A stretch of 64,000 nt of DNA from Acidobacteriota bacterium (GTDB lineage Bacteria; Acidobacteriota; Holophagae; Holophagales; Holophagaceae): contig JAJYRN010000001.1 of the NCBI GenBank assembly GCA_021794095.1, positions 186,001 to 250,000 on the forward strand, in the 5' to 3' direction. Made by a program: the position numbers and the translations under genes. This document shows, one piece after another, positions 4,624-49,635 of this stretch (within the stretch, counting starts at the first letter, position 1; every line of letters begins with the position of its first letter). The notes beneath the pieces were generated by a model. That model did no database searches, had not been told where the DNA came from, and saw only the letters and a program-made list of their open reading frames with translations.

Positions 4624-4686
4624 GGGAACCCCTCACCCAGGGATGTCCCGTTCGATCGAGAGGTGCCCGCGGGGTACACTGCCCGG

Positions 4687-5355: not shown

Positions 5356-5366
5356 GGGGAAAAATG

Positions 5367-5450
5367 GAACACAGAGGACACAGAGAACCGCAGAGCACAC
5401 AGAGGACGTTCCTCTGTGCCCCCTGTGGGGGATCTGCGTCCCCTGCGTTC
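5367..5450. repeat. Long imperfect palindrome, CACAGAG type
   Basis: The gap between the ATPase and its permease holds two arms of about 40 bases, 5367-5406 and 5410-5450. They are largely reverse complements, both built from CACAGAGGA-like units with an almost zero loop. It would form one long imperfect hairpin in the ABC-permease transcript. Similar GA-rich palindromes scatter between genes in many bacteria. Its position inside an operon suggests an mRNA stability or attenuation effect, but that is inference. Confidence 0.7.
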
Positions 5451-5479
5451 CCGCTTTTCACTCGGCCGGTGGTGTTCGG

Positions 5480-6724
5480 ATGATCCTCGCCCGCCTGGCC
5501 CTCCGCAACCTGCTGCGCCAGCGGCGGCGCACGGCCCTCACGCTGATGGTGGTGGTGGCGGGCTTCGTGGCCCTCAGCCTCGCGGGCGGCTTCATGGCCC
5601 AGACATTCAAAGGGCTGGCCGATGGCGCCATCCGGGGGGGACTGGGCGACCTGCAGGTGCTGCCCCCCGGCCACCGGGACGGAGATGAGCGCCAGAGCCT
5701 GGAACGGTCCCTTCCCGACGGCGAAGCGCTGGCCGCGCAGCTGCGCCGCGATCCGGCCGTGGCGGAGGTGCTGCCTCGCACCCAGTTCATGGGGCTCATT
5801 TCCAGCGGCCCGCAGAGCGTGGCCTTCCTGGGCACCGCGGTGGATCCCCTCCGCGAACCCCGCTTCATGGCCTGCCTGGACGCCCTGAAGGATGGCGCCA
5901 AGGCGCCGGGCGGCGCGGGTTCCCGCTGGCTCTCGGCGGATCCCGACGCCCGCGAAGTGATCCTCGGCACGGGGCTCGCCCGGGCCCTGGGGGCCTCCGT
6001 CGGCAGTTCCCTCACCCTGATGTCCACCACGAAGGCCGGCGCCCTCAATGGCGTGGATGTGGAGGTGGTGGGCCTCCAGGATCTCGGGCTGAAGGAACTC
6101 AACGACCGGAGCCTCACCGTCAGCCTCGCCACCGCCGGCCAACTGCTGGAGGCGGGCCCTGCCCGGTCGGCCCTGTCCATCGTGCTGCGCCATCCCGGCG
6201 CCGCGGCGCAGGAGGCCGTCCGCCTCCAGGCCCTGCTCCCCGGTACCCGGGTCCGGCCCTGGTACGAGCTGGCCACGTTCTACCGGCAGGTGAAGCTGCT
6301 CTACACCGCCATCTTCGGTTTCATGGGCCTGGTGCTTTTCCTGGTGGTGCTGCTGGCCACCGTGAATACCCTCCTCATGTCCGTCCTGGAGCGCATCCGC
6401 GAATTCGGCGTCCTGAGGGCCCTCGGCCTGCAGTCGAGACAATTGCTGTCGCTTCTGCAATGGGAAGGGGCCTTCCTGGGCCTGCTCGGGAGTGGCCTCG
6501 GGCTGGCCGCCACCCTCCTGCTCCGGGCCGGCCTCAACGCCCTGCACCTGCGAATGCCCGCGCCGCCCGGCACCAGCCACGGTTACGAACTGGACATCCA
6601 CTTCGTGCCTCTGGTCTATGTCGCCGTCGCCCTGGGGTTGCAGGCGACGATCCAGCTCAGCGCCCTTTTCCCGGGCCTGAAGGCGGCGCGCCTGCGGATC
6701 GTGGAGGCCCTGCGGCATGTCTGA
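5480..6724 (+). CDS. FtsX-like ABC transporter permease
   Basis: A 414-residue inner-membrane permease. It opens MILARLALRNLLRQRRRTAL, the usual short cytoplasmic start of FtsX/MacB permeases, with the first membrane helix at about residues 22-42. A large periplasmic domain of about 230 residues follows. Three more helices lie in the C-terminal third, with FGVLRALGLQSRQLLSLL at the coupling region. It pairs with the ATPase just upstream. An ATG at 5480 is preferred over the open frame from 5330, whose extra residues are encoded by the palindromic repeat. The ribosome site is weak. Confidence 0.92.
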   Translation: MILARLALRNLLRQRRRTALTLMVVVAGFVALSLAGGFMAQTFKGLADGAIRGGLGDLQVLPPGHRDGDERQSLERSLPDGEALAAQLRRDPAVAEVLPRTQFMGLISSGPQSVAFLGTAVDPLREPRFMACLDALKDGAKAPGGAGSRWLSADPDAREVILGTGLARALGASVGSSLTLMSTTKAGALNGVDVEVVGLQDLGLKELNDRSLTVSLATAGQLLEAGPARSALSIVLRHPGAAAQEAVRLQALLPGTRVRPWYELATFYRQVKLLYTAIFGFMGLVLFLVVLLATVNTLLMSVLERIREFGVLRALGLQSRQLLSLLQWEGAFLGLLGSGLGLAATLLLRAGLNALHLRMPAPPGTSHGYELDIHFVPLVYVAVALGLQATIQLSALFPGLKAARLRIVEALRHV

Positions 6725-6738
6725 GGTAGGCTGGGGAG

Positions 6739-7407
6739 ATGCTTCGCTCCACCATCGCCGCTCTGGCCCTGCTCTTCCTGGCCCTTCCGCTGCGCGCGGA
6801 TGGGCTGGAGTTCGCTCTGGGATTGGGAATCCTGCCCACCACGCAGGGCGGTCCCGCCTACCCGGACGGTGATCCTGCCACCGCCCTGCAGCTGCGCATC
6901 GGCTGGGACCACTCCCCCTCCTACCTGTGCATGACCCAGTGGCAGGTCCAGGCCCAGTCAGGCTCCAACGCCGACCTCCGGTTCGTGACCACCGGGCTCG
7001 GCCTCCAGCAGAGCTGGTGGTCCCGGAATCACGGCTTCGAAGGCGCCCTCGGCACAGAGTTACGGGTGGAGCGCTATGAGGGACGCTCCAGCCTAGCGGA
7101 AGGGCCTTCCCCCCTCGATGGGCAGGTGGCCTGGATGGTCCGGCCCTGGATTCGGGGGCAGATCGGCTTCCGGGGCATCCTCATCCCCTTCGGCTGGTCA
7201 TCCACGGACCTGCTGGCCGCCCTCACCCAGGGCGGACGGTACAGCCACCCCTTCACCCGCCTGGAGGTGGCCCTCCCGCTGTGGAACCAGGGTGGCACCG
7301 GCCTGGCGGGGGATCTGCTGCACAGGGCGCCACGCTACGAAATCTCCCTCCAGTTCGGCATGCGGTTCGGGTCCCGTCCCCCCTGGGCCGCTGCCGACGA
7401 GCCTTGA
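6739..7407 (+). CDS. Secreted or outer-membrane protein of unknown family
   Basis: A 222-residue protein with a signal peptide (MLRSTIAALALLFLALPLRADG). The mature part alternates polar and hydrophobic residues with many aromatic and glycine positions, as in small beta-barrels. It ends with a strand-like stretch (YEISLQFGMRFG) before a short tail. It starts 14 bases after the permease stop, in the same direction, so it may be the outer-membrane partner of the exporter. I do not recognise a named family. The preceding sequence GGGGAG abuts the ATG closely. Confidence 0.75.
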   Translation: MLRSTIAALALLFLALPLRADGLEFALGLGILPTTQGGPAYPDGDPATALQLRIGWDHSPSYLCMTQWQVQAQSGSNADLRFVTTGLGLQQSWWSRNHGFEGALGTELRVERYEGRSSLAEGPSPLDGQVAWMVRPWIRGQIGFRGILIPFGWSSTDLLAALTQGGRYSHPFTRLEVALPLWNQGGTGLAGDLLHRAPRYEISLQFGMRFGSRPPWAAADEP

Positions 7408-7412
7408 CCGCC

Positions 7413-7949
7413 ATGGCCGCCGCCCCGTCCCCTCCCGGCCCACCCGCCCCTCGCCTCGCCTGGTGGATCGCCACGGGCTTCGGCAGCGGCCGTCTGCGGC
7501 CCGCGCCAGGCACCTGGGGCAGCCTGGCGGCGCTGCTGGTCTGGGCCCTGGGAATGCACCTGCTCCGGGGGCATCCCGCAACCGCGCTGCTGGGCTGCGC
7601 GGCGCCGCTCCTGATGACCGGCCTCGGCATCTGGGCCTCGGACCGGGTGGTGATGGAGACAGGCCTGGGGGATCCGGCCTTCGTGGTGGCGGATGAATGG
7701 GCGGGCCAGTGGATTGCCCTCGTTCCCCTGCTCTTCACCGGCGCGCTCCAGACCCCGCGCTGGGCGTGGCACCTCGTCGTTCCGTTTCTCCTCTTCCGCC
7801 TTTTCGACATCTGGAAGCCGGGGCCGGTGGATGCGGCCCAGCGGCTGCCCGGCGGCTGGGGCGTGGTTCTGGACGATGTGGTGGCGGGCCTCTTCGCGGC
7901 CCTGCTCACCTGGCCTTTGGAGGTCGTCCTTCTCCATCGGCTCCATTGA
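7413..7949 (+). CDS. pgpA: Phosphatidylglycerophosphatase A
   Basis: A membrane enzyme that removes the phosphate from phosphatidylglycerophosphate to give phosphatidylglycerol. The 178-residue product has the PgpA landmarks: ATGFGSGRLRPAPGTWGS near the N-terminus, ADEWAGQWIAL in the middle, and FRLFDIWKPGPV followed by GVVLDDVVAGL, supplying the acidic catalytic residues. Four hydrophobic segments are evident. The ATG at 7413 is five bases after the upstream stop; a TTG overlapping that stop is an alternative. The close spacing suggests shared transcription with the exporter genes. Confidence 0.93.
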   Translation: MAAAPSPPGPPAPRLAWWIATGFGSGRLRPAPGTWGSLAALLVWALGMHLLRGHPATALLGCAAPLLMTGLGIWASDRVVMETGLGDPAFVVADEWAGQWIALVPLLFTGALQTPRWAWHLVVPFLLFRLFDIWKPGPVDAAQRLPGGWGVVLDDVVAGLFAALLTWPLEVVLLHRLH

Positions 7950-8005
7950 GGAGATGGCCGACGCGGGGAATGCGGTTCATGCTGCCCACACGCCCTGGAG
8001 TCCCC

Positions 8006-8437
8006 ATGCGCCCTCTGCTTCTCCTTCTGCTCGCCACGGGCCTGAGCGCCACGCAGCCCCAGGTTCACATCCTGTCCGCATCCGTCCTCCTCGGCCCGGG
8101 CCGCGCGCCGCGACCGGGTGATGCCCCCTTCCACCCGCAGCTGACGGTGGCGGTGGCGGTGGACGGGCTGCGGAAGGGCGACGTCCCGGCATTCGGCCTC
8201 TGGAACGAAGCGGAGACGAGGGCCGGGCACACCCGGCACCTGGTCCGGATCCGGGTTGCGGCCATGGCCCCCGATGGGCCTGGCCACTACCGCCTGCTCG
8301 CCGCGCCCGAGGGCGGAGCTGACGGCACGATCATCGTGCGGCTGTGGCTCCGGGGCCACTGGGGCCCCCGCGCCGAAGCGCCCCTCCAGCGCCACGCCCT
8401 GCCCGCCGCCCGTCCCGCTGGCGGCCAGGAGGCGTGA
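8006..8437 (+). CDS. Small exported protein, unknown function
   Basis: A 143-residue product that begins MRPLLLLLLATGLSA, a short signal peptide. It continues as a single small domain with beta-like stretches (QLTVAVAVDGL, HLVRIRVAAMAP, GTIIVRLWLRG). A GGAG ribosome site five bases upstream supports ATG 8006 over the earlier ATG at 7970. It follows pgpA by 56 bases and may be the last gene of that run. No motif assigns a function. Confidence 0.7.
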   Translation: MRPLLLLLLATGLSATQPQVHILSASVLLGPGRAPRPGDAPFHPQLTVAVAVDGLRKGDVPAFGLWNEAETRAGHTRHLVRIRVAAMAPDGPGHYRLLAAPEGGADGTIIVRLWLRGHWGPRAEAPLQRHALPAARPAGGQEA

Positions 8438-8458
8438 GCGCTGCCGGGCAGATGTGAT

Positions 8459-8542
8459 GTCCCGGCTTGGCCGGGACCTCACGTGGGGGTGCACGAGGGG
8501 GGACATCGCGGACCGAAGGGGCGCAGGCGGTCCCCCCTCGTG
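8459..8542. terminator. Paired hairpins between convergent genes
   Basis: Two strong palindromes fill the gap between the small exported protein and the helicase, which face each other. The first, 8459-8477, is a perfect 8-bp stem with loop ttg. The second joins 8492-8504 with 8530-8542, a 13-bp perfect stem around 25 bases. Neither has a long T run, so their role as a two-way transcription barrier is inferred from position. Confidence 0.55.
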
Positions 8543-8546
8543 GATT

Positions 8547-10292
8547 TCAGCCCGCCGTTTCCGCCCGGAGCTGGCGCCACACCAGCGGTTCGCTGAGGCC
8601 GCCCGCCTCGTCGAAGTGGCGGCTCTCGATGAGGTAGCGGTAACCCTGCTCCGTGAGGAAGAGCTGCCGGTTCCGGGCGAACTCCTGCTCGGTGGTGTCG
8701 CGGCTGATGAGCGAGTAGAAGTAGCTCACATTCCGGTCATCCTTTGGGCGCAGGATCCGTCCCAGGCGCTGGGCCTCCTCCTGCCGCGATCCGAACGTGC
8801 CGCTCATCTGGATGGCCACGCTGGCGTCCGGCAGATCAATGGCGAAGTTGGCCACCTTGCTCACGATGAGCACCCGGAGCTGGCCCTCCCGGAACTGCCG
8901 GTAGAGGACTTCCCGCTCCTTCTCAGGCGTCTGACCCGTGAGCACGGGCGCGCCCAGCCGCTCGCCGAGGATGCGGAGCTGCTCCAGGTACTGGCCGATG
9001 ATCAGGATGTTGTCCGTGGGATGGCCGGCGAGCAGTTCGTCCACCAGCACCAGCTTCATGCTGTTCTCGCTCGCGATGCGGAAGCGCTGGCGCTGGTCCG
9101 CCACCGCGTATTCCATGCGCTCCACCGTGGGCAGGGGGACGCGGATCTCCAGGCAGTGGGCCGTGGCGATGAAGCCATCCTTCTCCAGCATCTTCCAGGG
9201 CACATCCACCCGCTTGGGGCCGATGAGGCTGAAGACGTCCTCCTCCTTGCCGTCCTCGCGCACCAGCGTGGCCGTGAGGCCCAGGCGGCGCTTGGCCTGC
9301 AGCTCCGCCACGGCGCGGAACACCGGGGCGGGCAGCATGTGCACCTCGTCATACACCACCAGGCCCCAGTTGGCAGCCTCGAAGAGTTTGAAGTGCTCGA
9401 AGGGGCCCGCCTTGCTCCGGCGGTAGGTGAGGATCTGGTAGGTGGCGATGGTGACGGGCTTGATCTCCTTGGTGTCGCCGGTGTAGAGGCCCACCTGATC
9501 GTCCGTGAGCGTGGTCTTGTCCAGCAGCTCCTGCTTCCACTGCTTCACGGCGGTGCCGTTGGTGGTGAGCACCAGGGTGTGGGTCTGGAGCCGCTCCATG
9601 CAGCCGATGCCAATGACGGTCTTGCCGGCGCCACAGGGGAGCACCAGCACCCCCGCCCCGCCATCGGGGCCCCCACCCGCATGGAAGACATCCACCGCCG
9701 CCTTCTGGTAGGCCCGCAGGCCGAAGGGCTTGCCGCTGGCCGCCAGTGTGGGGGACAGCTGGAAGGGCAGCGGGTCGCCGGGCTTGTAGCCCGCCATATC
9801 CTGCACGGGATGGCCCAGCCGGATGAGCTGGAGCTTCACCTCGCCCCGCATGCCGCTATTCAGATAGATGCCCGTCTCGTCCGGATACGGCTCCGCCAGG
9901 AGCCCCTGGAGGGATTTCTGGTTCTCCAGCTCCCAATAGAGGCCCCGGTCATCCATTTCCAGGGCCAGGCGGTCCCCCTTGGCCACGAGGCGAAGCTTGC
10001 CGTAGCGGGTGCCGTGATCCTCGATCTCCTGGAGCAGGTTCTGGGGCACCGGGTACTTGGACCAGGTGTTGAGCGTCTCGATCATGTCCTGGCAGGCCAC
10101 GCCCGAGGCTGAGGCGTTCCAGAGGCTCAGGGGCGTGATGCGGTAGGTGTGGATGTGCTCCGGGCTCTTCACCAGCTCCGCAAACCGGGCCAGCTCGTCC
10201 CGCACCTGCTCGAAGAGCGGATGGGCCACCTCCAGCAGCAGCGTCCGGTCGCTCTGCACGATGAGGGGATTGTCGGGGCGGAGGGCGATCAC
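8547..10292 (-). CDS. XPB/Rad25-type DNA helicase
   Basis: A superfamily 2 helicase of 581 residues related to eukaryotic and archaeal XPB. The N-terminal 180 residues correspond to the damage-recognition region. Walker A is at 219-226 (CGAGKTVI) and the DEVH box at 315-318. The XPB-specific RED triplet lies in ATLVREDGKEED near 345-347. Motif VI is QRLGRILRPK in the second RecA-like fold. The start is GTG at 10292, chosen because the family's N-terminus begins here; the ribosome site is poor. The helicase-associated protein at 14382-16292 is its likely partner. Role: DNA unwinding in repair or transcription-coupled processes. Confidence 0.92.
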   Translation of the reverse strand: MIALRPDNPLIVQSDRTLLLEVAHPLFEQVRDELARFAELVKSPEHIHTYRITPLSLWNASASGVACQDMIETLNTWSKYPVPQNLLQEIEDHGTRYGKLRLVAKGDRLALEMDDRGLYWELENQKSLQGLLAEPYPDETGIYLNSGMRGEVKLQLIRLGHPVQDMAGYKPGDPLPFQLSPTLAASGKPFGLRAYQKAAVDVFHAGGGPDGGAGVLVLPCGAGKTVIGIGCMERLQTHTLVLTTNGTAVKQWKQELLDKTTLTDDQVGLYTGDTKEIKPVTIATYQILTYRRSKAGPFEHFKLFEAANWGLVVYDEVHMLPAPVFRAVAELQAKRRLGLTATLVREDGKEEDVFSLIGPKRVDVPWKMLEKDGFIATAHCLEIRVPLPTVERMEYAVADQRQRFRIASENSMKLVLVDELLAGHPTDNILIIGQYLEQLRILGERLGAPVLTGQTPEKEREVLYRQFREGQLRVLIVSKVANFAIDLPDASVAIQMSGTFGSRQEEAQRLGRILRPKDDRNVSYFYSLISRDTTEQEFARNRQLFLTEQGYRYLIESRHFDEAGGLSEPLVWRQLRAETAG

Positions 10293-10490
10293 GGGGCGGT
10301 CAGGTCCAAACCTTTGAGCCTAGAAGGCAATCCGGGAGGGGTCAACGACCGGCACGCCGCCGGCCCCTGGGCGCCGTTAAGGAATTGTCAGGAAAAAGCA
10401 ACAACGCCCGGGGGTATCGTTTCAGTTCGCCAGGATTCACCCGATGAATGGGGAGTCGTGGATACCCTTCCCCCCACTTCAGGAGGCACC

Positions 10491-13400
10491 ATGGCCTTCC
10501 CCCGCCTGCGAACCCTCACGCCCCTCGCCCTGTTTCTGGCTCTGCCGCTGGGCGCGCGCAGCCTCCCGAATGCCGGGACCCTGCCGGGGCGTGCCAACCC
10601 CGCCCTCAAAGGGGACGAACCCGATCGCCCCGATCTCCGCCGGGACTGGAACCTCTACTGGTTCGGCGGCAAGCCGAGCCCCGCCTACCTCGACTACAAG
10701 AACCACTTGGCGGCCCGGGAGATGCGGCGCTGGGGGAACCTGATGCCGAAGGCGGGAAGCGCCAAGCTGCTGCCCGCCATCGTGGGCACGGCGGCGGCCC
10801 CCTCGGGCACGGGCGGCACCTGGGTCAGCCTGGGCCCCACGGCCAATTCCACCTCCCTCAAGTACCCCGACATTGACAGCGGACGCCCCAGTGCCATCGC
10901 CGTGGATCCCGCCAGCAACACCCTCTACCTGGCCGCCAGCGGAGGCGGGGTGTGGAAATGCACCAACGCCGACCCGAGCGCCGCAGCCAGCAGCTGGACC
11001 TGGACCCCCATCACCGACGGCCTGCCCAACAGCGGTGCCGATGGCAATGTGAGCGTGGGCGCCCTGGCCATGAGTCCCACCAATGACCAGGTCCTCTACC
11101 TGGGCCTGGGGGACGCCTTCGATGCTGAGGGCCGTGGCTTCTACGTGTCCCCCGACGGAGGCAATACCTGGACCGCCTCCACCGGGATCGGCGCCCAGAC
11201 CATCTCCTACTGCATCCTGCCCCTGGATGCCAACCACGTGTTCTGGGGGACCAACGATGGGCTGAAAGTCAGTACCGACGGGGGCGCCACGTTCAACCCG
11301 GTCTCCGGCAACCCCGCCATGGGCCAGGCCTGGAGCCTCCAGGCCTTCACTCCCATGGATCTCGTCTGCTCGGTCCAGGACAGCAGCGGGACCGGGAGCA
11401 TCTACTACTCGAGCGACGGAGGCAACACCTGGAACCCTGCCACCCTAAGCGGGCTCGGAGCCATCACGCCCGGCCGCATGACCCTTACGGCCGTGCCGGG
11501 CGGCACCGCCGGCTACGCGGAAGTGGAGGACACCACGGCCCAGGATGTCGGCCGGGGCGTGCTCGTCACCAGCGACAAGGGCCGCACCTGGTCCTGGCAG
11601 GCCGCAGCGACGGAAACCGACGGCCTATTCCAGAGCACGGACCCCGGCATGAGTAGCGATGGCGGGCAGCAGTGGTACAACCAAGCCATCGCCGTGGATC
11701 CCACCAATCCACAGCGGCTCATCATGGGCGCCAATCTGGCGATGTACCGTTCTACGAATGGCGGTGCCAACTGGCAGCAGCTCACCCAGTGGTATGGAGG
11801 CGGCCACGTCTATTCCCACGCCGACTTCCACACCGTCGCCTACAAGGGCGGGATCTTCTACCTGGGTAATGACGGCGGCCTGTCCATCTTCAAGGATCCC
11901 TGGCGGCCCACCATCCCGACTGGCTCCGCCATCGCGTCGGACACCACCTTCGTGGACAACACCCAGAACAAGGGCCTGGTGACCCATCTGGTCTACAACG
12001 TCGGTTCCACCCTCGCCACGAATGTCCCCGATGGGAAGTACCGCATCAGCCTCGGCATGCAGGACAACGGCACCCGCATCCGCCAGCCCAACTCGGGGAG
12101 CACCACCCTCACGGGAACCGAATCGGTCTTCGACGACCAGATCGGGGGGGACGGCTTCGCCACCCTCATTAACCCCGCCGACGGCCAACAGATGCTGGGA
12201 TCCATCTACTACACGGACATCTACAAGAGCACCGATGGCGGCACCACCTTCAAAGAGTCCATCACCGGCCTCACCGGAGCGAAACAGAGCTCGGATGCCC
12301 CCTTCCAGCCCCGGCTGGCCCTCGGCGACACGGCCGATCCCAACACCGTCTACACAGCTACCAACGGATCCGTCTTCAAGAGCACCGATTTCGGTTCCAC
12401 CTGGACGGCCCTCGGCCGGACCGGCCTGCCGACCGCAGGCACCTCCTCCAGCAGCAGCGCGACTGATCTCTTCATCCGGAACATCGGCGCGGCCACCGGG
12501 GATCCCACCGCCCTCGGCATCGCCGCCAACGGGGGCCGCTTCTACCTGAGCTACGCCAGCGGGACCAACTGGACTCAAACCACCACGCCGCCGAACACTG
12601 CCGCCTACACCAGCTGCATCTGGTTCGACCGGAGCAACTCATCCATCGTGTACGCGGCCTCCGTGGCCTACTCGGCCACGGCGGACCACATTTGGAAGAG
12701 CACCGACCGGGGCCAGACCTGGCAGGCGCTGGACGGCACCCCCAGCGCCTCCAACGGCTTCCCCTTCGGCATCCCGGTGCATGTGGTCCAGACGGATCCC
12801 AAGGATCCCAACACGGTCTATGCCGGCACCGATTTCGGCGTCTACTACTCCGTGGATGGCGGTTCGAACTGGTCCCGCTTCGGGTCTGGCCTGCCCATGG
12901 TGGCCGTGCGCGACCTCTACGTCGCCCCGGATGACAGCTTCATCCGCGCCGCCACCTTCGGCCGGGGCGTGTGGCAGCTCCAATCCGCCGCGGGCGTCAC
13001 CGTGACGCTCGACAAGCCCACGGCCAAAGTGCTGCCCTCCGGCACCACCACCTTCACGGCCGCCGTCAGCAATTTCAAGACGGACAATACTGTGAACTGG
13101 ACGGTCTCCACCGGCGGCGGCAGCGTCGCCCCGACCAACACCCCCTCGGGCACCGCCACCACCTACACTGCCCCCGCCACCCCGGGCCTCTACACGGTGA
13201 CCGCCGCCAGCAACGAATCCCCCACGGCCACCGCCAGCGCGACCGTGGCGGTCTTCGATCCCGCCGCCCTCACCGTGACGGTGGCTCCGACCACGACCAC
13301 CCTGATGGCAGGCGCCTCCTACACCTTCGCCGCCACGGTCGCGAACGCGCCGGACAATACGGTGACCTGGTCGGTCAGCACCGGCGGTGGTTCGATCACC

Positions 13401-40325: not shown

Positions 40326-43300
40326 ATGCCCCGTGCCCCCTTCTGGTCCATCCGGACGCACCTGCTCCTGCTGGTCGTACTGGCCGTGCTTCCCGCGCTG
40401 GCGGTCATCGCAGCCGTGGGCCTCAAGGATGACAACCTGGCCCAGAGCCTGATCCTGCTGGCCTTGGCCGCCCTCCTGGCCCTGGCGCTCGGGTGGTTGT
40501 TCGGCGACCGCGTCCTGGTGGCGCCCTTGCGGGCGCTGAGCTCCCACATCGCCCGGGTGGAGCGCGGGGATCTGGGCACCCCTCCCACGGGCCTGGCCAA
40601 CCGACACACGGAAATCGGACGGCTGGCCCAGGCCTTCGAGGCCATGGAGGAGGCCCTCCGGACCCGGGAACAGGCGCGGCAGGCCGCCGAGGAGGCCCTC
40701 CGCGCCAGCGAGGAACACTACCGGATCATCTTCAACGCAGCCCCCATCGGGATCTTCCACTTCGATACCCGCTCGGTGATCCAGGAGAGCAACCAGGCCT
40801 TCCTCGACCTTCTCGGAGCCGATCGCACGGCGCTCCACCACTTCTCCATGTTCGAGCGGATCAAGCATGCCGGCGTCCGCCAGGCCATCCAGGACGCCCT
40901 GGACGGGCACATCGGGGAGGCGGTCGGGGAGTACGTTTCGGTCACCGCGAACCGCCGGGTGGTGACACGCCTGCTGACCTATCCCATCTGGGGCCAGGAT
41001 GGCCGCCTGCTCGGGGGCATTGGCCTCACGGAGGACATGACCGCACGGGAGCACGCCGAATCCGCGCTCAGGGAGAGCGAACGACGGATGGACCTGTTCT
41101 TCGCCCGCTCCCGGGATGCCTACTACATCGCCATGCTGGAAGAGCCCCTGGAGTGGAGCGGCGGGACCGCGGGCGAGTCCGCGGTGGAAGCGGCTCTGGA
41201 CCGCCAGCGCCTCACCCGGACCAATCCCGCCCTGGCGGCCCAACTGGGCGCTCCCGAGGGCGAACTGGCCAACTGGACCCTGCGCGATTTCTACCGCCAG
41301 GAGCCGGAAGCTGCCGCTCGGGACATGATGGAGCTGCTGGACCAGGGGCACCTCCGGCGGGAACGCCGGGAGATCCAGCCCGACGGGAAGACCCTGTGGA
41401 TCGAGTGGGACCGGATCTGCTTCTTCGATGCGGAGGGGCGCATCCTGGGCCATTTCGGGATCCGCCGGGATGTCACCGACCGCAAACGCACCGAACAGAT
41501 TCTCCGCGAGAGCGAGCAGACCACCCGGAGCCTCTTCGATGCCGTGAACGATGCCATCTTCGTCCACGACCTGAAGACCGGCGCCATCCTCGATGTCAAT
41601 GGGCGGGCCATCGAGATGTACGGATACCCCCGCGATGCGTTCCCCGAGCTTTCGGTGGGGGACATCTCCGAGAACACGCCCCCCCATACCCAGACCGAGG
41701 CCCTGGCCTGGATGCGCAAGGCCGCCGCCGGGGAGCCCCAGGTCTTCGAATGGCGCTGCCGCGACCGCTCGGGTCGCGCGTTCTGGGTCGAGGTGAACAT
41801 GCGCCGCGCCACGATCGGGGGCCAGGACCGCATCCTGGTCGCCGTGCGGGATGCCGAGGCCCGGCGGAGCGCCGAGGCGGCCCTGCGCGATGCCGAAGCC
41901 CGCTATCAGGGCCTGTTCGTGAACTCGCCGGATTCCATTTTCTGGATCGGCGTCCCGGAACAGGGCCCCTTCGTGGTGGAGAGCCTGAATCCCGCCCAGG
42001 AGGCCATGCTGGGACGCCCCGCCCGCGAGATCGTGGGACGCCCCCTGCACAAATGGCTGCCCGCCCCCACCGCCGCCCGACTCACCGCCAACTACCGCCG
42101 CTGCCTGGAGGCGGGCCATCCGATCTCCTATGAGGAACACCTGGATCTGGGCTCGGGCCACCGCCACTTCCAGACCCTCCTTGTGCCCGTGCGGAATCCG
42201 GAAGGCCGCGTCCACCGGATCGTGGGCATCAGCGCCGATATCACCGAGCGGCGGCGCGCCGAGGAGGAGGGGCTGGAACAGGAGCGCCTCTTCCGCCTGC
42301 TCTTCGAGCGTTCCGGCGATGCGAACCTGCTCATTGACGGAAACCAGTTCGTGGACTGCAATCAGGCCACGGTGGACATCCTGGGCGCGCCGGACCGCGC
42401 GTCCGTGCTGGGTACGCACCCTTCGGAGCTCTCGCCGCCCTTCCAGCCCGACGGGCGGGCCTCGAAGGAGAAGGCCGACGAACTCATCGAGACGGCCCAC
42501 CGCCTGGGCAGCCACCATTTCGAGTGGGTGCACCGGAAGCTGGATGGCACCGACTTCCCCGTGGAAGTCCTGCTGACCGCCATCCCCTGGAAGGGCAAGC
42601 AGATCCTCCACACGACCTGGCGGGATCGCACCGAGGCCCGCCAGGCGGAAGCGCAGCGGCGCACCCTGGAGGCGCAGTTCCAGCAGGCCCAGAAGCTGGA
42701 GAGCCTGGGCGTGCTGGCGGGCGGCATCGCCCATGACTTCAACAACCTGCTCACCGCCGTGCTCGGCAACCTCAACCTCGCCCAGTTCAACCTGAACCCG
42801 GAATCCCCGGCGGCCCCCTTCCTGGAGAGCGCGGAGAAGACCGTCCTGAAGGCTTCGGATCTCACGAAGCAGATGCTCGCCTATTCCGGCAAGGGGCGCT
42901 TCGTGGTGAAGCTCCACGACCTGAACACCGTGGTCTCCGAGATGACCCACCTCCTCCGCGTGTCCATCTCCAAGAAGGCCTCCCTCCGCCTCAACCTGCC
43001 CGAGGGGCTGCCGCCGCTGGAGGCGGATGGCGCCCAGCTCCAGCAGGTGATCATGAACCTGGTCACCAACGCCTCGGATGCGCTGGGGGACCAGGAAGGC
43101 ACCATCGCGATCAGCACGGGGGCCGCCCAGCTCGATGCCGCCACCCTCGCCTCCATCTTCCCCACCCAGACCCTCCAGCCCGGTTCCTACGTGACCCTGG
43201 AAGTGGGCGATACCGGCCAGGGCATGAGCCAGGAGGTGATGGCCCGCATCTTCGATCCCTTCTTCACCACCAAGACCACGGGCCGGGGGCTGGGCCTGTC

Positions 43301-43817
43301 GGCCATGCTGGGCATCCTGCGGGGGCACCAGGCGGGGCTGAAGGTGTACAGCGAAGTGGGCCGGGGCTCCACCTTCAAGGCCTTCTTCCCGGCCGCGCCC
43401 GGCAGCCTGCCGACCGCGGAGACCCGGGAACCCGCCCGGGCCTCTGCGCTGGCTGGCACCGTGCTGCTGGTGGATGACGAACCCTCCGTCCTCGACACCA
43501 TCGGCCCCGCGCTGAAGACCCTGGGCCTGCGGGTGCTGCTCGCCCGGGACGGACAGGAAGCCGTGGAGCGCCTCCTGGACGATCCCCGCGCCATTGACCT
43601 CGTGCTGATGGACCTCACCATGCCCCGCATGGATGGCAAGGAAGCCTTCCAGGCCATGCGCCGGATCCGGCCGGATCTCCGCGTGATCCTCAGCAGCGGC
43701 TACAACGAGCAGGAATCCCTCCAGTCGTTTTTGGGCCGCGGGCTCGCCGGTTTCCTCCAGAAGCCCTACACCCTGGAGGCCCTGCGGACCACCCTGCGGA
43801 AGGCCCTGGAACCCTGA
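40326..43817 (+). CDS. Hybrid histidine kinase with five PAS domains and receiver
   Basis: A 1163-residue membrane sensor. Two hydrophobic segments (about 10-30 and 38-60) leave a periplasmic loop of only a few residues, and a HAMP stretch follows. Five PAS domains cover about 120-780. The phosphoacceptor histidine lies in GGIAHDFNNLLTAVLG. The ATP-binding parts are NLVTNASDAL, GDTGQGM and DPFFTTKTTGRGLGLS. A receiver domain from about 1045 has the phospho-aspartate in VLMDLTMPRMDG. The short loop and many PAS domains point to intracellular sensing. Its stop abuts the stop of the convergent channel gene. No cognate regulator is adjacent. Confidence 0.95.
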   Translation: MPRAPFWSIRTHLLLLVVLAVLPALAVIAAVGLKDDNLAQSLILLALAALLALALGWLFGDRVLVAPLRALSSHIARVERGDLGTPPTGLANRHTEIGRLAQAFEAMEEALRTREQARQAAEEALRASEEHYRIIFNAAPIGIFHFDTRSVIQESNQAFLDLLGADRTALHHFSMFERIKHAGVRQAIQDALDGHIGEAVGEYVSVTANRRVVTRLLTYPIWGQDGRLLGGIGLTEDMTAREHAESALRESERRMDLFFARSRDAYYIAMLEEPLEWSGGTAGESAVEAALDRQRLTRTNPALAAQLGAPEGELANWTLRDFYRQEPEAAARDMMELLDQGHLRRERREIQPDGKTLWIEWDRICFFDAEGRILGHFGIRRDVTDRKRTEQILRESEQTTRSLFDAVNDAIFVHDLKTGAILDVNGRAIEMYGYPRDAFPELSVGDISENTPPHTQTEALAWMRKAAAGEPQVFEWRCRDRSGRAFWVEVNMRRATIGGQDRILVAVRDAEARRSAEAALRDAEARYQGLFVNSPDSIFWIGVPEQGPFVVESLNPAQEAMLGRPAREIVGRPLHKWLPAPTAARLTANYRRCLEAGHPISYEEHLDLGSGHRHFQTLLVPVRNPEGRVHRIVGISADITERRRAEEEGLEQERLFRLLFERSGDANLLIDGNQFVDCNQATVDILGAPDRASVLGTHPSELSPPFQPDGRASKEKADELIETAHRLGSHHFEWVHRKLDGTDFPVEVLLTAIPWKGKQILHTTWRDRTEARQAEAQRRTLEAQFQQAQKLESLGVLAGGIAHDFNNLLTAVLGNLNLAQFNLNPESPAAPFLESAEKTVLKASDLTKQMLAYSGKGRFVVKLHDLNTVVSEMTHLLRVSISKKASLRLNLPEGLPPLEADGAQLQQVIMNLVTNASDALGDQEGTIAISTGAAQLDAATLASIFPTQTLQPGSYVTLEVGDTGQGMSQEVMARIFDPFFTTKTTGRGLGLSAMLGILRGHQAGLKVYSEVGRGSTFKAFFPAAPGSLPTAETREPARASALAGTVLLVDDEPSVLDTIGPALKTLGLRVLLARDGQEAVERLLDDPRAIDLVLMDLTMPRMDGKEAFQAMRRIRPDLRVILSSGYNEQESLQSFLGRGLAGFLQKPYTLEALRTTLRKALEP

Positions 43818-44741
43818 TCAGCCCTCCGGTTCCCGCCGGAGGCGCACCACCTGCTGCGGATAGGGGATCTCAATGCCCGCCTCCCGGAAGGCCACCAGGA
43901 TGCGCTTCCGCAGTTCCCGGGCCACCTCCCACTGCTTCGCCGGCGCCGTCTTGGTGAGGGTGCGCAGGGTCACGGCGCTGTCGCCCAGGGCCTCCACGCC
44001 CAGCACCTGGGTGGGCTCCAGCACGCGATCCGGCCAGGCTTCGGACAGCTCTTGTCCAATCCGTTGCAGCAGCTCGATGGCCGCGTCGAAATCCGCGTCG
44101 TAGCTCACGCCCACATCCACCTGGGCCCGGGCGAACTCCTTGGAGAGCACCACCACCCGCACCACGGAGCCGTTGGGGATGAAGTGCGCCTTGCCTTCCG
44201 CATCGCGGATCTGGGTCACGCGCAGGGTCATGCGCTCCACCGTGCCCGTGTGCTTCTCATCCACGCTGATGATATCCCCCACCCCGAACTGGTTCTCGAG
44301 CAGCAGGAAGAATCCACTCAACACATCCTTCACGAGGCTCTGGGCGCCGAAGCCCAGGGCCACGCCCGCGATGCCGGCCCCGGCCACCAGGGGGCCGATG
44401 TTCACGCCGAACTCCTGGAGGGTCATGAGCAGGAAGAACACCACTGCCAGGATCCGCGCTGTGTTGTTGAGCACCGAGCCCAGCGTCTCCGCCCGGCGTT
44501 CGGCATCAGAGGTGGTGCTGTCGTCGCCATCGTCCACCGCCTTGCGGACCGCGTGGGACAGGAGCCTCACGCTCCACAGGATGGCCAGGCAGGCACCCGC
44601 CACCATGGCCAGATGCTCCAGGCGCGCCCAGCCCGTGCGGTCCATCCAGGCGAGGACGTGGTCGAAGCGATGGGTCCCGGTCTTCAGGAGGGGCTGGAGG
44701 GCATCGGTCGCATCACACATCAGGCTCATGGACACGATCAT
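43818..44741 (-). CDS. MscS-family mechanosensitive channel
   Basis: A 307-residue inner-membrane channel. Three membrane helices lie at about 40-60, 85-110 and 115-145. The third is the pore-lining one, with GPLVAGAGIAGVALGFGAQSLVKDVLS cut by the usual glycine-alanine pattern. Then come the beta domain (VGDIISVDEKHTGTVERM) and an alpha/beta C-terminus. Several in-frame start codons lie between 44747 and 44718 and none has a clear ribosome site; 44741 is a compromise. Channels of this kind release solutes on osmotic downshock. Confidence 0.92.
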   Translation of the reverse strand: MIVSMSLMCDATDALQPLLKTGTHRFDHVLAWMDRTGWARLEHLAMVAGACLAILWSVRLLSHAVRKAVDDGDDSTTSDAERRAETLGSVLNNTARILAVVFFLLMTLQEFGVNIGPLVAGAGIAGVALGFGAQSLVKDVLSGFFLLLENQFGVGDIISVDEKHTGTVERMTLRVTQIRDAEGKAHFIPNGSVVRVVVLSKEFARAQVDVGVSYDADFDAAIELLQRIGQELSEAWPDRVLEPTQVLGVEALGDSAVTLRTLTKTAPAKQWEVARELRKRILVAFREAGIEIPYPQQVVRLRREPEG

Positions 44742-44962
44742 GCCCACCCGTCGCCCTGGCCATCAACCGGAAGCGGGGCACCCGCACCGGAAGCACCACC
44801 CCCACCTCCTGAGTGCGACCGGCCCCTCGCCGAGGTCCGCCGGAGCGCCCCCGAAGTCAAGTCATCCCCCCACGCAGCCGATGGGTTTTTTACGGCACCC
44901 CCATCGCCGCCCGGGGGACTGGTTGGCTTGAGCCCGGGCCTCCCGCACCCCCGCGAGGTTCC

Positions 44963-45652
44963 ATGAACCGCGACCACCACCAGGAGCTTCTCAACGCCAT
45001 TCAGCAGGCGGACCGCGCTGGCGCCAACGCCATCATCGAGGACTGGGCCGCGGGCCACTCGTACCCGCAAGTGGTGCCGGACCTGCTGTCGCCGACGCTG
45101 GAGGCCTTCGGCCGGCTGTGGGCGCATCGGGAGATCGGCTTCTCCCTGGCCACGGGCTACGTGGCAGCCAAGGTGGCCGAGGATGTGCTGGCCCGGCTGC
45201 TCGAAGAGGCCGGCGCCCACGGGAAGGCCCAGGCGCCCCTCAAGGGGCCGGTGGTGCTGGGGAACGTGGAGGATGATTTCCATCCCCTGGGGCGCAAGAT
45301 GGTGGGCGCCTTCCTGCGGGCGGATGGCTGGGAGGTGCATGACCTGGGGGTGGATGTCACGCCGGTCCAGTTCCTGGACGCCGCGGAGGCACACGGCGCC
45401 CGGGTGATCGGCGCCTCGGCCATGATGCACACCACGGCGAAGAATGCCGCGAAGCTCCGCGAAGAGCTGGAGCGGCGTGGCCAGGCGGGCCGGATCCAGC
45501 TGGCCCTGGGCGGCGCAGTGTTCAAGCTCCGACCGGAACTGGTGGCGACCTTCGGCGGTGATGGCACGGCGCCCAGCGCCGTGGAGGCCCCGGCGCTGTT
45601 CGAGCGGCTCTGGCAATGCGCCACCGCCTACCGGGGGGAGGCCGCGCCATGA
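44963..45652 (+). CDS. Corrinoid (B12-binding) methyl-carrier protein
   Basis: A 229-residue protein of the MtaC/MtbC/MttC type, which shuttles methyl groups on cobalamin between methyltransferases. The N-terminal helical cap is residues 1-85. The Rossmann-like B12 domain has the cobalt-ligand motif D105-x-H107-x-x-G110, followed by GWEVHDLGVDV and ALGGAVFKL. GAGG lies four to five bases before ATG 44963. It heads a run of four overlapping genes. The 221 bases upstream show no cobalamin riboswitch consensus that I could find. Confidence 0.92.
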   Translation: MNRDHHQELLNAIQQADRAGANAIIEDWAAGHSYPQVVPDLLSPTLEAFGRLWAHREIGFSLATGYVAAKVAEDVLARLLEEAGAHGKAQAPLKGPVVLGNVEDDFHPLGRKMVGAFLRADGWEVHDLGVDVTPVQFLDAAEAHGARVIGASAMMHTTAKNAAKLREELERRGQAGRIQLALGGAVFKLRPELVATFGGDGTAPSAVEAPALFERLWQCATAYRGEAAP

Positions 45653-46674
45653 ACAGCCTCGAGCGGGTGCTCGCCGCCCTCCAGGGCCAGCCCAGTGACC
45701 GGCCGGCCTTCCTGCTCAACGCGGGCCTCTACGGAGCCCGCCTCACGGGCGCCCCTCTGGCCGAGCACTACCGCGATTCGGCCCGCTTCGCGGAGGGCCA
45801 GATGGCCATCCGCGAAACCTTCAGCCCGGACCTGCTGATCAGCCCGTTCATGCTGGCGGGCGTCGGCGCGGCGTTCGGCAGCCGGATGAGCGAGCCCCGG
45901 CGCAATCCGCCCAACGTGGCCGCCTTCGCCGCCCCTTCCGCCGAGGCGGCCCTGACCCTGCCCATGCCGGATGTGGACAGCCATCCCCGGCTGCTCTACC
46001 TGCGGGAGAGCGTGCGGATCCTGGCGCGGACCTACGCGGGAGAGGTGCCCATCATCGGCCTGCTGGCCAGCCCCCTGGACCTGCCGCCCGTCATCATCGG
46101 CCTGGAAGCCTGGCTGGATGCGCTGCTCTTCCAGCCGGACGCGGCCCGGGCCCTCCTGGACCGCCTCACGCCGTTCTTCGTGGCGCTGGGCACCGCCCTG
46201 CTGGCGGATGGCGCCACCGCCCTGGCCATCACCGCCAACCTCGGCAACCCGTTCATGGTGCCGGAAGCCGTGGCCCGAGAGCTCGCCCGGCCCTGCCTGG
46301 AGCAGGCCCTGGCGGGCCTCCCGGGCCCCGTGATCCTCCACGGCGGCGGCTGCCCGTTGCTGCCGCACCTGGCGGGTTTCCTCGGCCTGCCGAACACCGT
46401 CGGCTATGTGCTCGCCCCCGACGAGGATCCCGCCCGGGCCCGGGGGATCGTGGGTGCGGGCCCCCTGCTGCTGGGCAACCTGGATGGCCCCCGCCTGGCC
46501 GATCTCACGCCCGAGGCGGTGGGCGAACGCTGCGACCGGGTGCTGGCCCAGCGCGGCCCGGACCGGCAGTTCATCCTGGCCACCTCAGACGCGGACATCC
46601 CGCTGGACACCCCGCCGGAGTGCCTCCAGGCCATCACGGAGGCGGTCTGCCGCGCCGGGAGCGTGCTGACATGA
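45649..46674 (+). CDS. UroD/MtaA-superfamily protein with altered zinc ligands
   Basis: A 341-residue TIM-barrel protein of the uroporphyrinogen decarboxylase/methylcobamide methyltransferase superfamily. Its ATG overlaps the preceding TGA (ATGA). In MtaA enzymes zinc is held by an HxC pair and a later cysteine in a PGCD-like turn. Here H231 and C235 are spaced as HxxxC, and the later turn reads ATSDADIPLDTP, with serine (313) where cysteine is expected. It may bind metal differently or not act as a methyl-CoM-type transferase. It probably works with the corrinoid protein next to it. Confidence 0.85.
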   Translation: MNSLERVLAALQGQPSDRPAFLLNAGLYGARLTGAPLAEHYRDSARFAEGQMAIRETFSPDLLISPFMLAGVGAAFGSRMSEPRRNPPNVAAFAAPSAEAALTLPMPDVDSHPRLLYLRESVRILARTYAGEVPIIGLLASPLDLPPVIIGLEAWLDALLFQPDAARALLDRLTPFFVALGTALLADGATALAITANLGNPFMVPEAVARELARPCLEQALAGLPGPVILHGGGCPLLPHLAGFLGLPNTVGYVLAPDEDPARARGIVGAGPLLLGNLDGPRLADLTPEAVGERCDRVLAQRGPDRQFILATSDADIPLDTPPECLQAITEAVCRAGSVLT

Positions 46675-47282
46675 CTTCCGGCACCCGTCCCATCCGCTGC
46701 CTCGCCTGCTCGATTTTCAAGCAGGAGATCGAGGCGTTGCGGGCCGCTGGACGGCTCGACCTGCCGGTGAGCTACCTCAACTCCATGCTGCACATGGTGC
46801 CGGAGCGCCTGGAAACCCGCCTCCAGGCGGCCCTGGCCACAGCCCGGGAGGAAGCCCCCGAAGCCACGGTCGTGCTCGCTTATGGGGACTGTTGCGGGCA
46901 CATGGAGGAACTGGAACAGGAACCCGGCACCCGCCGCACGGAAGGTATCAACTGCTGCGAGATCCTCCTGGGCTCGGAAACCTACCGGGCCCTTCGGCGG
47001 GAAGGCGCCTTCTTCCTCATGCCCGAGTGGGCCCTCGGGTGGAAGAAGATTTTCGTCAACCAGCTCGGCCTGCTGGGCCCCTGCGCGCGCGAGTTCATGC
47101 GCGAGATGCATTCGCGGCTGATCTACCTCGATACCGGCATCCTGCCGGTGCCCGAGGCGGAACTGGCGGAAGCCAGCGCGTTCCTCGGCCTGCCGGTGGA
47201 GGTGCGGCCCGTATCCCTGGATCCTCTCCTGGCCAGCCTCGAGCAGGCTGGCCGCGCCGCGAGGGCCCATGACACCGAATGA
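46671..47282 (+). CDS. DUF1638 family protein
   Basis: A 203-residue cytoplasmic protein coupled by ATGA overlap to the UroD-like gene. It is cysteine-rich in three places: CLACSIFKQEI near the N-terminus, YGDCCGHMEEL at about 63-73 and INCCEILLG at about 85-93. These could hold a metal or cluster. DUF1638 genes are known from methanogens and from bacteria with corrinoid methyltransferase clusters, but the biochemical role is undefined. The context here agrees with such a link. The 3' end overlaps the kinase gene by 14 bases. Confidence 0.85.
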   Translation: MTSGTRPIRCLACSIFKQEIEALRAAGRLDLPVSYLNSMLHMVPERLETRLQAALATAREEAPEATVVLAYGDCCGHMEELEQEPGTRRTEGINCCEILLGSETYRALRREGAFFLMPEWALGWKKIFVNQLGLLGPCAREFMREMHSRLIYLDTGILPVPEAELAEASAFLGLPVEVRPVSLDPLLASLEQAGRAARAHDTE

Positions 47283-49635
47283 ACCCCAGCCGCTGGACGC
47301 CGCCGCCATCCAGTTCATGGTCCTCGACTTCCTCGACCAGATCCTCACCTTCTCGGAAAACCCCGGGGAAATGGGGCGCTTCATTGTCCAGCAGCTGCGG
47401 GAGCTCATGGGCGCCCGGACCGTGCTGCTCCTCCAGCACGGCCCCGATCCCCTGGATGGCAGCGCCCGGATCGTGGCCCTGGAACCCGAGCGGGCGCGGA
47501 ACACCCTGCGGCTCGAGCCCCTCCTGCGCCTGGCGGCCCGCCATCCGGAACAGGCTGGAGCCCAGTTCTTCACCCGGACCGGAACCGATCCCGGAGACGC
47601 GGAGCTGCTGGTGTCGTTGGGACTGGACAGCCTGAGCCTCACGCCCCTCCGGGCCGGGGGGCGCCGGGTCGGCAGTCTGGCGGCCCTGGAGCACCTGGAT
47701 CTCCACCGCAGCGATGAGGTGCTGCGCCTCCTGGGCCTGCTGTCTCCGGTCTTCGCCCTCATCCAGCGCAGCACGTTCCAGTTCCAGGTCCAGGAAGCCA
47801 TGGTGCAGGCCCAGGCGGAGGAATACGAGGCCCTGTGGCAGACCAACCTGGATGGCATCCTCATCGTGGACCCGGATGACCGGATCCGCTCCGCCAACCC
47901 GGCCTACCTGCGGATGTCCGGCTACACCCTGGAGGAGATCCAGGGCAGGCACATGTCCGAACTGGACGCCGACGAGACCCCACCCGACACCGCCGACCGC
48001 ACCCGGCAGATCATCCACGAGGGTTCCTCCCGCTTCACCGCCCGCCACCGCCGGAAGGACGGCAGCGTCTATCCGGTGGAAGTCTCCACCACCTACGTGC
48101 CCGGCCGCGGGCTGATCATCGGCTTCATCCGGGATCTCACCGACCGGATCGCCGCCGAGGACGCCCTGCGGGCGAGCGAAGCCAACCACCGGGAGCTGGT
48201 GGAGATCCTGGGCGAAGGCATCTCCCTGGCAGATGCGGAAGACACCTTCACCATGGCCAACCCGGAAGCCGAGCGGATCTTCAGGGTCGGGCGTGGTGAC
48301 CTGGTTGGCCGGAACCTGCGCGCCTTCCTCGATGATCAGGAATGGTCCCGGGTCCGGGCCTTCACCCGTCAGCGGATGGCCGGCCAGTCTGATACGTACC
48401 AGCTTCAAATTCTGCGTGCGGATGGTGAACGCCGCACCCTGCAGATCACGGCCACGCCCAGGCGCGACGGGAACGGCCGGTTTACCGGCAGCCTAGGCGT
48501 CTTCCGGGACATCACCGAGGAATTGAAGCTCCAGGAGGCCCTGCGGCTGGCCCACAAGATGGAAAGCCTGGGCCATCTGGCCAGCGGCGTCGCCCATGAC
48601 ATGAACAACGTGCTGGGCGCCATCCTCGGCCTGTCCAGCCTGCAGCTCACCCTCCACCCCGAGGGCTCGCCCCTCCAACGCACCTTCAAGACCATCACCC
48701 AGGCCTGCCTGCGGGGCCGGAACATGGTGAAGGGACTGCTCGATTTCGCCCGCAAGGACATGGCCGGACCACGCCCCGTGGCCCTGGGCGGTCTCATCGA
48801 GGAGGAGGTGCGCCTGCTGGAACGCACGCTCCCCGCGAACATCCAGGTCCACCTGGATCTGGATCCCGAGGCCGGGTGGATTCAGGGCGATCCGGACGCC
48901 CTGGGCCTCATGCTCATGAACCTCTGCGTGAACGCCAAGGACGCCATGCCCGACGGGGGCCGGCTGACCCTGGCCGCCCGCGCCCTGCCGCCCCAGGAGA
49001 CGCTCCTGACCGTAGCGGACACCGGGACCGGCATGTCGCCCGAGGTGCTGGAGCACGCGCTGGATCCCTTCTTCACCACCAAGCCCCAGGGCCAGGGGAC
49101 GGGGCTCGGCCTCTCCCAGGCCTACAGCACGGTGAAAGCCCACCGGGGCAGCCTGGAGATCCTCAGCCGGCCCGGGGAGGGCACCACCCTGAAGATCCGC
49201 TTCCCCACCGTGGCCGCTTCCCCCGGCGCGCCCGCCCCGGAGGCGCCCGCCAGCCCCCGGACCGCCACCATCCACCAGGTGCTCCTGGTGGACGACGATG
49301 AACTGGTCCAGGCGGCGGTGGCCTCCCAGATCGAGGCGCTCGGGCACACGGCTCTGATCGCGACTTCCGGCGAGGAGGCCATGGATCTGGTCGCCCAGGG
49401 GCACCATCCCGCGATCGTGCTGCTGGACCTCAACATGCCCGGCTGGGGCGGGACACAGACCCTGCCGAAGCTGCGGGCCGCCCTGCCCGGTGTGCCGATC
49501 CTGCTGTCCACCGGCAGGGCCGATCAGGGCGCCATCAACCTCGCCCGGGCCCACCCCGGTGTCACCATCCTGCCCAAGCCCTTCCGCCTCGAAGAGCTGC
49601 GGGCCGCCTTCGCGCAGGCCCTGCCGCCAGCCTGA
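47269..49635 (+). CDS. Soluble GAF-PAS-PAS hybrid histidine kinase
   Basis: A 788-residue cytoplasmic kinase without membrane helices. A GAF-like domain covers about 15-165, and PAS domains cover about 185-300 and 305-425. The acceptor histidine is in ASGVAHDMNNVLGAILG. The ATPase domain has NLCVNAKDAM, ADTGTGM and DPFFTTKPQGQGTGLGLS. A receiver from about 665 has the phospho-aspartate in VLLDLNMPGWGG. Being the fourth gene of the corrinoid operon, it may sense the state or substrate of that pathway. Confidence 0.94.
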   Translation: MTPNEPQPLDAAAIQFMVLDFLDQILTFSENPGEMGRFIVQQLRELMGARTVLLLQHGPDPLDGSARIVALEPERARNTLRLEPLLRLAARHPEQAGAQFFTRTGTDPGDAELLVSLGLDSLSLTPLRAGGRRVGSLAALEHLDLHRSDEVLRLLGLLSPVFALIQRSTFQFQVQEAMVQAQAEEYEALWQTNLDGILIVDPDDRIRSANPAYLRMSGYTLEEIQGRHMSELDADETPPDTADRTRQIIHEGSSRFTARHRRKDGSVYPVEVSTTYVPGRGLIIGFIRDLTDRIAAEDALRASEANHRELVEILGEGISLADAEDTFTMANPEAERIFRVGRGDLVGRNLRAFLDDQEWSRVRAFTRQRMAGQSDTYQLQILRADGERRTLQITATPRRDGNGRFTGSLGVFRDITEELKLQEALRLAHKMESLGHLASGVAHDMNNVLGAILGLSSLQLTLHPEGSPLQRTFKTITQACLRGRNMVKGLLDFARKDMAGPRPVALGGLIEEEVRLLERTLPANIQVHLDLDPEAGWIQGDPDALGLMLMNLCVNAKDAMPDGGRLTLAARALPPQETLLTVADTGTGMSPEVLEHALDPFFTTKPQGQGTGLGLSQAYSTVKAHRGSLEILSRPGEGTTLKIRFPTVAASPGAPAPEAPASPRTATIHQVLLVDDDELVQAAVASQIEALGHTALIATSGEEAMDLVAQGHHPAIVLLDLNMPGWGGTQTLPKLRAALPGVPILLSTGRADQGAINLARAHPGVTILPKPFRLEELRAAFAQALPPA

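Follow-up and report, generated by a model that had tools for sequence, protein, structure and literature searches.

A predicted cytoplasmic sensory module of corrinoid, UroD-like and DUF1638 proteins linked to a GAF-domain hybrid kinase in an Acidobacteriota genome

The four-gene operon and its products

In this study we describe a four-gene operon of an Acidobacteriota bacterium of the family Holophagaceae (genome of 2.99 Mb, 99% complete), identified in the window, i.e. the whole analysed stretch of 64,000 nucleotides (contig JAJYRN010000001.1, positions 186,001 to 250,000). The operon encodes a corrinoid protein, a protein of the UroD/MtaA superfamily, a DUF1638 protein and a hybrid histidine kinase (Table 1), which are discussed below as parts of a probable sensor. 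Successive genes overlap by 4, 4 and 14 bases, and both these overlaps and the gene coordinates are exactly those given in a preliminary description of the sequence. A hydropathy scan revealed no transmembrane-like stretch in any of the four proteins, and none of them gave a helix-turn-helix or other DNA-binding Pfam match. The kinase is thus soluble, as described, and its place in the operon is kept in relatives (see below).

The first protein has the features of a methyl-carrying corrinoid protein, i.e. a B12-binding domain (Pfam, 8.6e-24) with the DxHxxG motif of the cobalamin lower ligand, preceded by a weak match to the helical cap domain (B12-binding_2, 1.8e-4, just under the cut-off). 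The motif was found in every sequence compared, and is invariant also in a divergent clade of relatives (loci L068-L074); with such conservation, the protein is predicted to bind cobalamin.

The second protein shows clear similarity to the UroD superfamily (Pfam URO-D, 2.5e-43), as expected of a soluble coenzyme M (CoM) methyltransferase of the MtaA/MtbA kind, and its best PDB match is the methylcobalamin:CoM methyltransferase 4ay7 (4.7e-11). The NCBIfam models mtaA_cmuA and MtaA scored it far under their cut-offs, and the His-Cys-Cys zinc site of MtaA/MtbA is not retained. His231 aligns with the zinc-ligand His of MtaA, but the Cys-equivalent position two residues further is Gly233, and Ala315 was placed by motif comparison at the second Cys ligand. 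The residue following His231 is Gly in the window protein and His in 81% of the 80 relatives introduced below. The strongly conserved polar residues of the pocket are D61, R265, H231 and D316. It has been reported that His-Cys-Cys marks S-methyltransferases, while replacement of the Cys residues by carboxylates or non-ligands marks O-methyltransferases (PMC10418091). Since both Cys positions are replaced in the operon protein, an oxygen-bound methyl donor would be the better guess, provided that catalysis has been kept. The divergent L068-L074 clade has lost the zinc-site His as well, yet retains the signalling fusions, which fits binding without turnover in that clade.

The third protein is a clear member of the DUF1638 family (PF07796, 3.1e-29; 102.3 bits versus a cut-off of 27), with the near-invariant residues Cys13, Glu19, His41, Cys74, Cys95 and Trp120. 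In the AlphaFold2 model (mean predicted local distance difference test score, pLDDT, of 95.6) these residues sit at strand ends or helix starts, an arrangement consistent with one putative cofactor or metal pocket. A Foldseek search with this model gave no hit at or below E 0.001 (the best one had an E of 1.3e-3 and a template modelling score of approximately 0.3). VIA-align returned a best Z of 7.8, and 7.3 for the cobalt chelatase CbiK, a range also reached by unrelated folds. In loci L070-L073 (e.g. L070:7375-8601, minus strand) the protein extends beyond its DUF1638 part by approximately 220 residues without a Pfam match, which on visual inspection resemble a coiled coil and a GAF-like part ending in CxWC...HGxCPxC.

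In the fourth protein, Pfam detected PAS, PAS, HisKA, HATPase_c and Response_reg domains. Every kinase and receiver motif is intact, including both phospho-acceptors, H443 and D720, and the N and G boxes, as in a genuine hybrid histidine kinase. The preliminary description was correct in this respect, but it overlooked the N-terminal GAF domain. The Pfam GAF match is weak in the window kinase (0.0027) and clear in 22 of 40 relatives; the AlphaFold2 model of this region has a pLDDT of 89.3 and its Foldseek matches are GAF domains.

Table 1. Features of the operon in the window and of fused or exchanged forms at related loci
Feature	Position	Strand	Details and basis
Corrinoid (cobalamin-binding) protein gene	44963-45652	+	229 aa
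UroD/MtaA-superfamily protein gene	45649-46674	+	341 aa
DUF1638 protein gene	46671-47282	+	203 aa
Soluble hybrid histidine kinase gene	47269-49635	+	788 aa; GAF-PAS-PAS-HisKA-HATPase-REC (Pfam, motifs, hydropathy)
Corrinoid protein domains	residues 7-59 (weak cap), 97-209 (B12-binding)	+	Pfam
DxHxxG cobalamin lower-ligand motif (D105-H107-G110)	45275-45292	+	100% conserved in 81 sequences
His231 of the UroD-like protein, aligned with the zinc-ligand His of MtaA	46339-46341	+	H in 96% of 80
Asp316 of the UroD-like protein, adjoining Ala315	46594-46596	+	D in 96% of 80
N-terminal GAF domain, kinase residues 1-185	47269-47823	+	AlphaFold2, Foldseek, co-evolution
Kinase phospho-acceptor His443 (HDMNN)	48595-48597	+	motif scan
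Receiver phospho-acceptor Asp720	49426-49428	+	motif scan
Natural fusion DUF1638-GAF-PAS-HK-REC	L046		Pfam
Natural fusion DUF1638-GAF-HK-REC	L068, L069		Pfam
Natural fusion DUF1638-PAS-GGDEF (diguanylate cyclase)	L074:8332-10299	+	Pfam
Natural fusion DUF1638-GAF-PAS-PAS-HD-GYP (c-di-GMP phosphodiesterase-type)	L119:10676-13243	+	Pfam
Natural fusion UroD-DUF1638	L142, L154		Pfam
GAF on HisKA_2 kinase	L124		Pfam

Conservation of gene order and exchange of the output domain

An alignment of the corrinoid protein was scanned against 84,980 species genomes, which yielded 107 relatives, of which we retained the best 80; approximately 15 of them are Holophagaceae records that also belong to our set of 120 related genomes. 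As the 80 relatives, spread over 16 named phyla, were chosen by corrinoid sequence alone, linkage to the kinase constitutes an independent result. All four parts were found in order and on one strand in 74 of the 80. They are closely packed, the median distances between a stop codon and the start of the next domain being -4, 5 and 25.5 bases. Most of the six exceptions sit at contig ends; a recognised DUF1638 was absent in L107 and L116, and a recognised UroD in L115. Within the related-genome set, DUF1638 is present in 30 of the 120 genomes, and the full corrinoid-UroD-DUF1638-GAF kinase order occurs in approximately 22 of those 30, complete genomes included, one of the loci carrying an in-frame DUF1638-kinase fusion.

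The four-gene arrangement is not due to chance. The preliminary description had proposed to check whether this order is conserved, and would have been refuted by the kinase being absent from the operon in all relatives, which is clearly not the case. It had also considered a misassembly hiding a nearby methyltransferase gene; this was rejected because the same four-gene set is intact across many independent assemblies.

Two variants deserve mention. The Desulfoluna operon (L107:9007-11534, plus strand), which is without DUF1638, ends with a gene for a 275-residue GAF protein without a kinase and is possibly a degenerate or reduced version. L104, L128 and L153 (Nitrospirota, Desulfuromonadales) each have an additional set, either corrinoid-UroD or UroD-DUF1638, within a few kb of the first.

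Comparison of evolutionary distances showed which parts of the operon belong together. For the non-Holophagaceae loci, the pairwise distances of the corrinoid, UroD, DUF1638 and GAF parts correlate at 0.89-0.93, whereas those of HATPase, which shares a protein with GAF, correlate with the four at only 0.31-0.36. The 27 loci with an ordinary HisKA core gave the same picture (0.89-0.96 among the four parts versus 0.25-0.32 for HATPase). The Mantel test resulted in 0/999 for both DUF1638-GAF and corrinoid-GAF. The HATPase distances have a spread and mean like those of the other parts, so saturation is not the cause of the low correlation. Judging by these distances, the conserved unit is corrinoid-UroD-DUF1638-GAF, and the kinase core is swapped; such a pattern is predicted for a fixed input that is combined with exchanged outputs.

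Natural fusions (Table 1) join neighbours only, following the order UroD-DUF1638-GAF-output, and suggest that the contacts are arranged as a linear chain. One input joined to differing outputs is a classic mark of a sensory module, and the same input was found here on HisKA, HisKA_2, GGDEF and HD-GYP outputs. This interchangeability points to a sensory input module.

Sensing versus methyl-transfer catalysis

Based on the data above, we consider it probable that the operon encodes a cytoplasmic sensor, in which the corrinoid, UroD-like and DUF1638 proteins would form an input unit docked on the dedicated GAF domain, and the latter would be joined to a replaceable output, in this case the PAS-PAS-hybrid histidine kinase. 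The four proteins would act as one complex, with the state of cobalamin as the signal. The UroD-like protein would most likely bind a small, possibly O-methylated compound, and either carry out methyl exchange with the bound cobalamin or merely bind the compound against it. The state of the corrinoid (methylated or free, capped or uncapped, or the oxidation state of cobalt) would then change, to be read by DUF1638 and GAF, which would set the kinase activity.

More tentatively, we put forward as a serious possibility that the methyl-transfer reaction itself serves as a chemical sensor. In such a case the UroD-like protein would move a methyl group between one specific metabolite and the corrinoid, and DUF1638 with GAF would read the methylation or oxidation of cobalamin to control kinases, diguanylate cyclases or phosphodiesterases. 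Of the two options named in the preliminary description, i.e. a methyl-transfer system with its own sensor and a B12-based sensor, the latter is well supported by the synteny, the co-evolving GAF and the interchangeable outputs, and is favoured over a catabolic system.

Catalytic corrinoid methyl transfer normally requires reductive reactivation. No RACo (RACo_C_ter) reactivase was found in the genome carrying the window by protein-family searches, and searches of this kind likewise revealed no member of the MttB (MTTB) or MtaB families. The operon encodes its only DUF1638 protein, and its only URO-D proteins are that of the operon and a HemE-like one, with no further UroD-type methyltransferase. 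RACo occurs in 26 of 50 other operon-bearing genomes and is absent in 24, including Geothrix fermentans (many of these genomes are incomplete metagenome-assembled genomes); it was found in only 11 of the 120 related genomes and nowhere in the flanking DNA retrieved for the 80 loci. With RACo missing from its own and about half of the operon-bearing genomes, energy-yielding methyl transfer by the operon appears unlikely.

Among the neighbours of the 80 loci there was no recurrent metabolic gene family beside the operon. The largest non-signalling cluster, an ATP-binding cassette (ABC) transporter ATP-binding family, occurs at 8 loci in scattered positions, and the only recurrent neighbours are signalling genes. 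In the window, a gene for a 1163-residue PAS-rich hybrid kinase (40326-43817, plus strand) lies approximately 1.1 kb upstream of the operon, and a mechanosensitive-channel-like gene (43818-44747, minus strand) is located between them.

The methyl-group metabolism of O-demethylating Holophaga, which the preliminary description had suggested, is therefore not borne out for this genome, as both the enzymes listed above and a metabolic neighbour are missing. Its remark that no substrate methyltransferase is present holds for MttB and MtaB, but may not hold for the UroD superfamily, whose members OdmB and VdmB have been named as substrate methyltransferases (PMC10418091); by analogy, the operon UroD itself could be such an enzyme.

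A catabolic or biosynthetic corrinoid methyl-transfer system that merely carries its own two-component regulator, as in mec operons, is favoured by the corrinoid and UroD-type proteins, which are standard parts of methyl transfer, and by the His and the carboxylate that the UroD site has retained. It also has a precedent, as mec operons include a histidine kinase and a response regulator (PMC9768040), and RACo-containing sister operons do exist. We nevertheless find it improbable, since the genome is without the reactivase, a second methyltransferase and the families of substrate-specific methyltransferases, no metabolic neighbour recurs, DUF1638 is fused to signalling outputs, and co-evolution confined to the GAF domain is not what one would expect of a mere regulator.

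Several observations weigh against the proposed sensor. With His231 and Asp316 kept, the UroD-like protein could still support real turnover, and the requirement for DUF1638 in methionine synthesis of P. inhibens represents an enzymatic context (PMC5764234). Moreover, three of the 11 related genomes with RACo have a divergent Holophagaceae operon of the order RACo-corrinoid-UroD-DUF1638-kinase, which thus starts with RACo (L055, L065 and L066, all on the reverse strand; in L065 at 4633-12092); the kinase in L065 and L066 is a PAS-rich hybrid one. This makes an enzymatic ancestor or role plausible, and the sensory module may have its enzymatic ancestor, or a sister, in the divergent RACo operon. 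A likely course of events is that a methyl-transfer enzyme turned into a sensor, with loss of the reactivase and acquisition of a GAF partner dedicated to it.

The module might also sense cobalamin itself (its supply, redox state, oxygen or light), with a non-catalytic UroD-like protein, by a logic similar to that of CarH or AerR; this is a sub-case overlapping the sensor proposed here. Conservation is highest at the corrinoid motif, the UroD-like protein is without both Cys ligands (and, in the L068-L074 clade, without the His), and many host lineages fall in anaerobe-rich groups. We regard this as rather unlikely, as the conserved polar pocket of the UroD-like protein would be needless in a passive partner and a DNA-binding domain is absent.

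The last explanation, i.e. a cobalamin chaperone or reactivation device that serves some other enzyme (methionine synthase, for instance) and whose load is reported by the kinase, draws on the finding that DUF1638 is needed for cobalamin-dependent methionine synthesis by a split methionine synthase in Phaeobacter inhibens (PMC5764234). In one Holophagaceae genome with RACo (L041:7542-9160, plus strand) DUF1638 directly follows a homocysteine S-methyltransferase gene, as in Phaeobacter (PMC5764234), so an enzymatic context of DUF1638 is found within the same family. This possibility seems very remote to us, since no methionine synthase part was found in or near the operons, and the Holophagaceae genomes that have only the type-1 operon are without the RACo partner.

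Relation to known systems

We found no description of a corrinoid/UroD/DUF1638/GAF-kinase module in the open-access literature, where DUF1638 is tied to B12 reactivation and no link to a kinase was found. The module is real, widely conserved and apparently undescribed, and probably represents an input of two-component and cyclic di-GMP (c-di-GMP) signalling with potentially novel chemistry. It links DUF1638, a large uncharacterised family, to signalling and adds to bacterial signal transduction a conserved multi-protein cytoplasmic input unit present in at least 16 phyla, with Geothrix fermentans, Desulfopila aestuarii, Desulfocicer vacuolatum and Geomonas species as cultured carriers. If the signal is the methylation state of cobalamin, this would be a new principle for sensing one-carbon compounds in anoxic habitats, and if the methyl-transfer reaction drives sensing, a signal input of a previously unknown kind. 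Corrinoid, UroD and DUF1638 genes in metagenomes should not automatically be taken as a sign of methylotrophy.

Three described systems share components with the operon. In Phaeobacter and Ruegeria (PMC5764234, PMC12478193) DUF1638 also stands beside a small corrinoid protein and is B12-linked. However, that system comprises a RamA-like (RamA/RACo) protein and the homocysteine and folate methyltransferase parts of a split methionine synthase, and no kinase has been described in it, whereas here the operon is without these parts and the GAF-kinase is a fixed component. The type 1 mlp clusters of Kountz and Balskus (PMC10418091) are likewise widespread and combine UroD/MtaA-superfamily and corrinoid proteins. 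Each of them encodes two or more Mlps, most of which carry the His-Cys-Cys ligands, and a RACE/Ram protein, with no mention of DUF1638 or kinases, in contrast to the single UroD (besides HemE) without Cys ligands, the lack of RACo in the genome, and the added DUF1638 and kinase found here. The mec cassette of anaerobic dichloromethane metabolism is likewise an operon that combines a corrinoid protein with an MtaA/CmuA-type protein and a histidine kinase, but it has several methyltransferases, a separate receiver and a kinase thought to sense via PocR, and DUF1638 does not appear in its table (PMC9768040). Kinase regulation of a methyltransferase of the mec kind, as the whole story, is weakened by the fusions and by the co-evolution confined to GAF.

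The cobalamin-binding fold is used in regulation by CarH and AerR, which are transcriptional regulators or their partners. Unlike the operon described here, they involve no UroD, DUF1638 or kinase, and the DNA-binding function of such regulators has no counterpart in its four proteins. In LuxPQ and TorT-TorS a separate protein binds the ligand and the kinase carries the output. The operon shares with them the use of partner-protein input, but this input consists of three cytoplasmic proteins related to a methyl-transfer enzyme.

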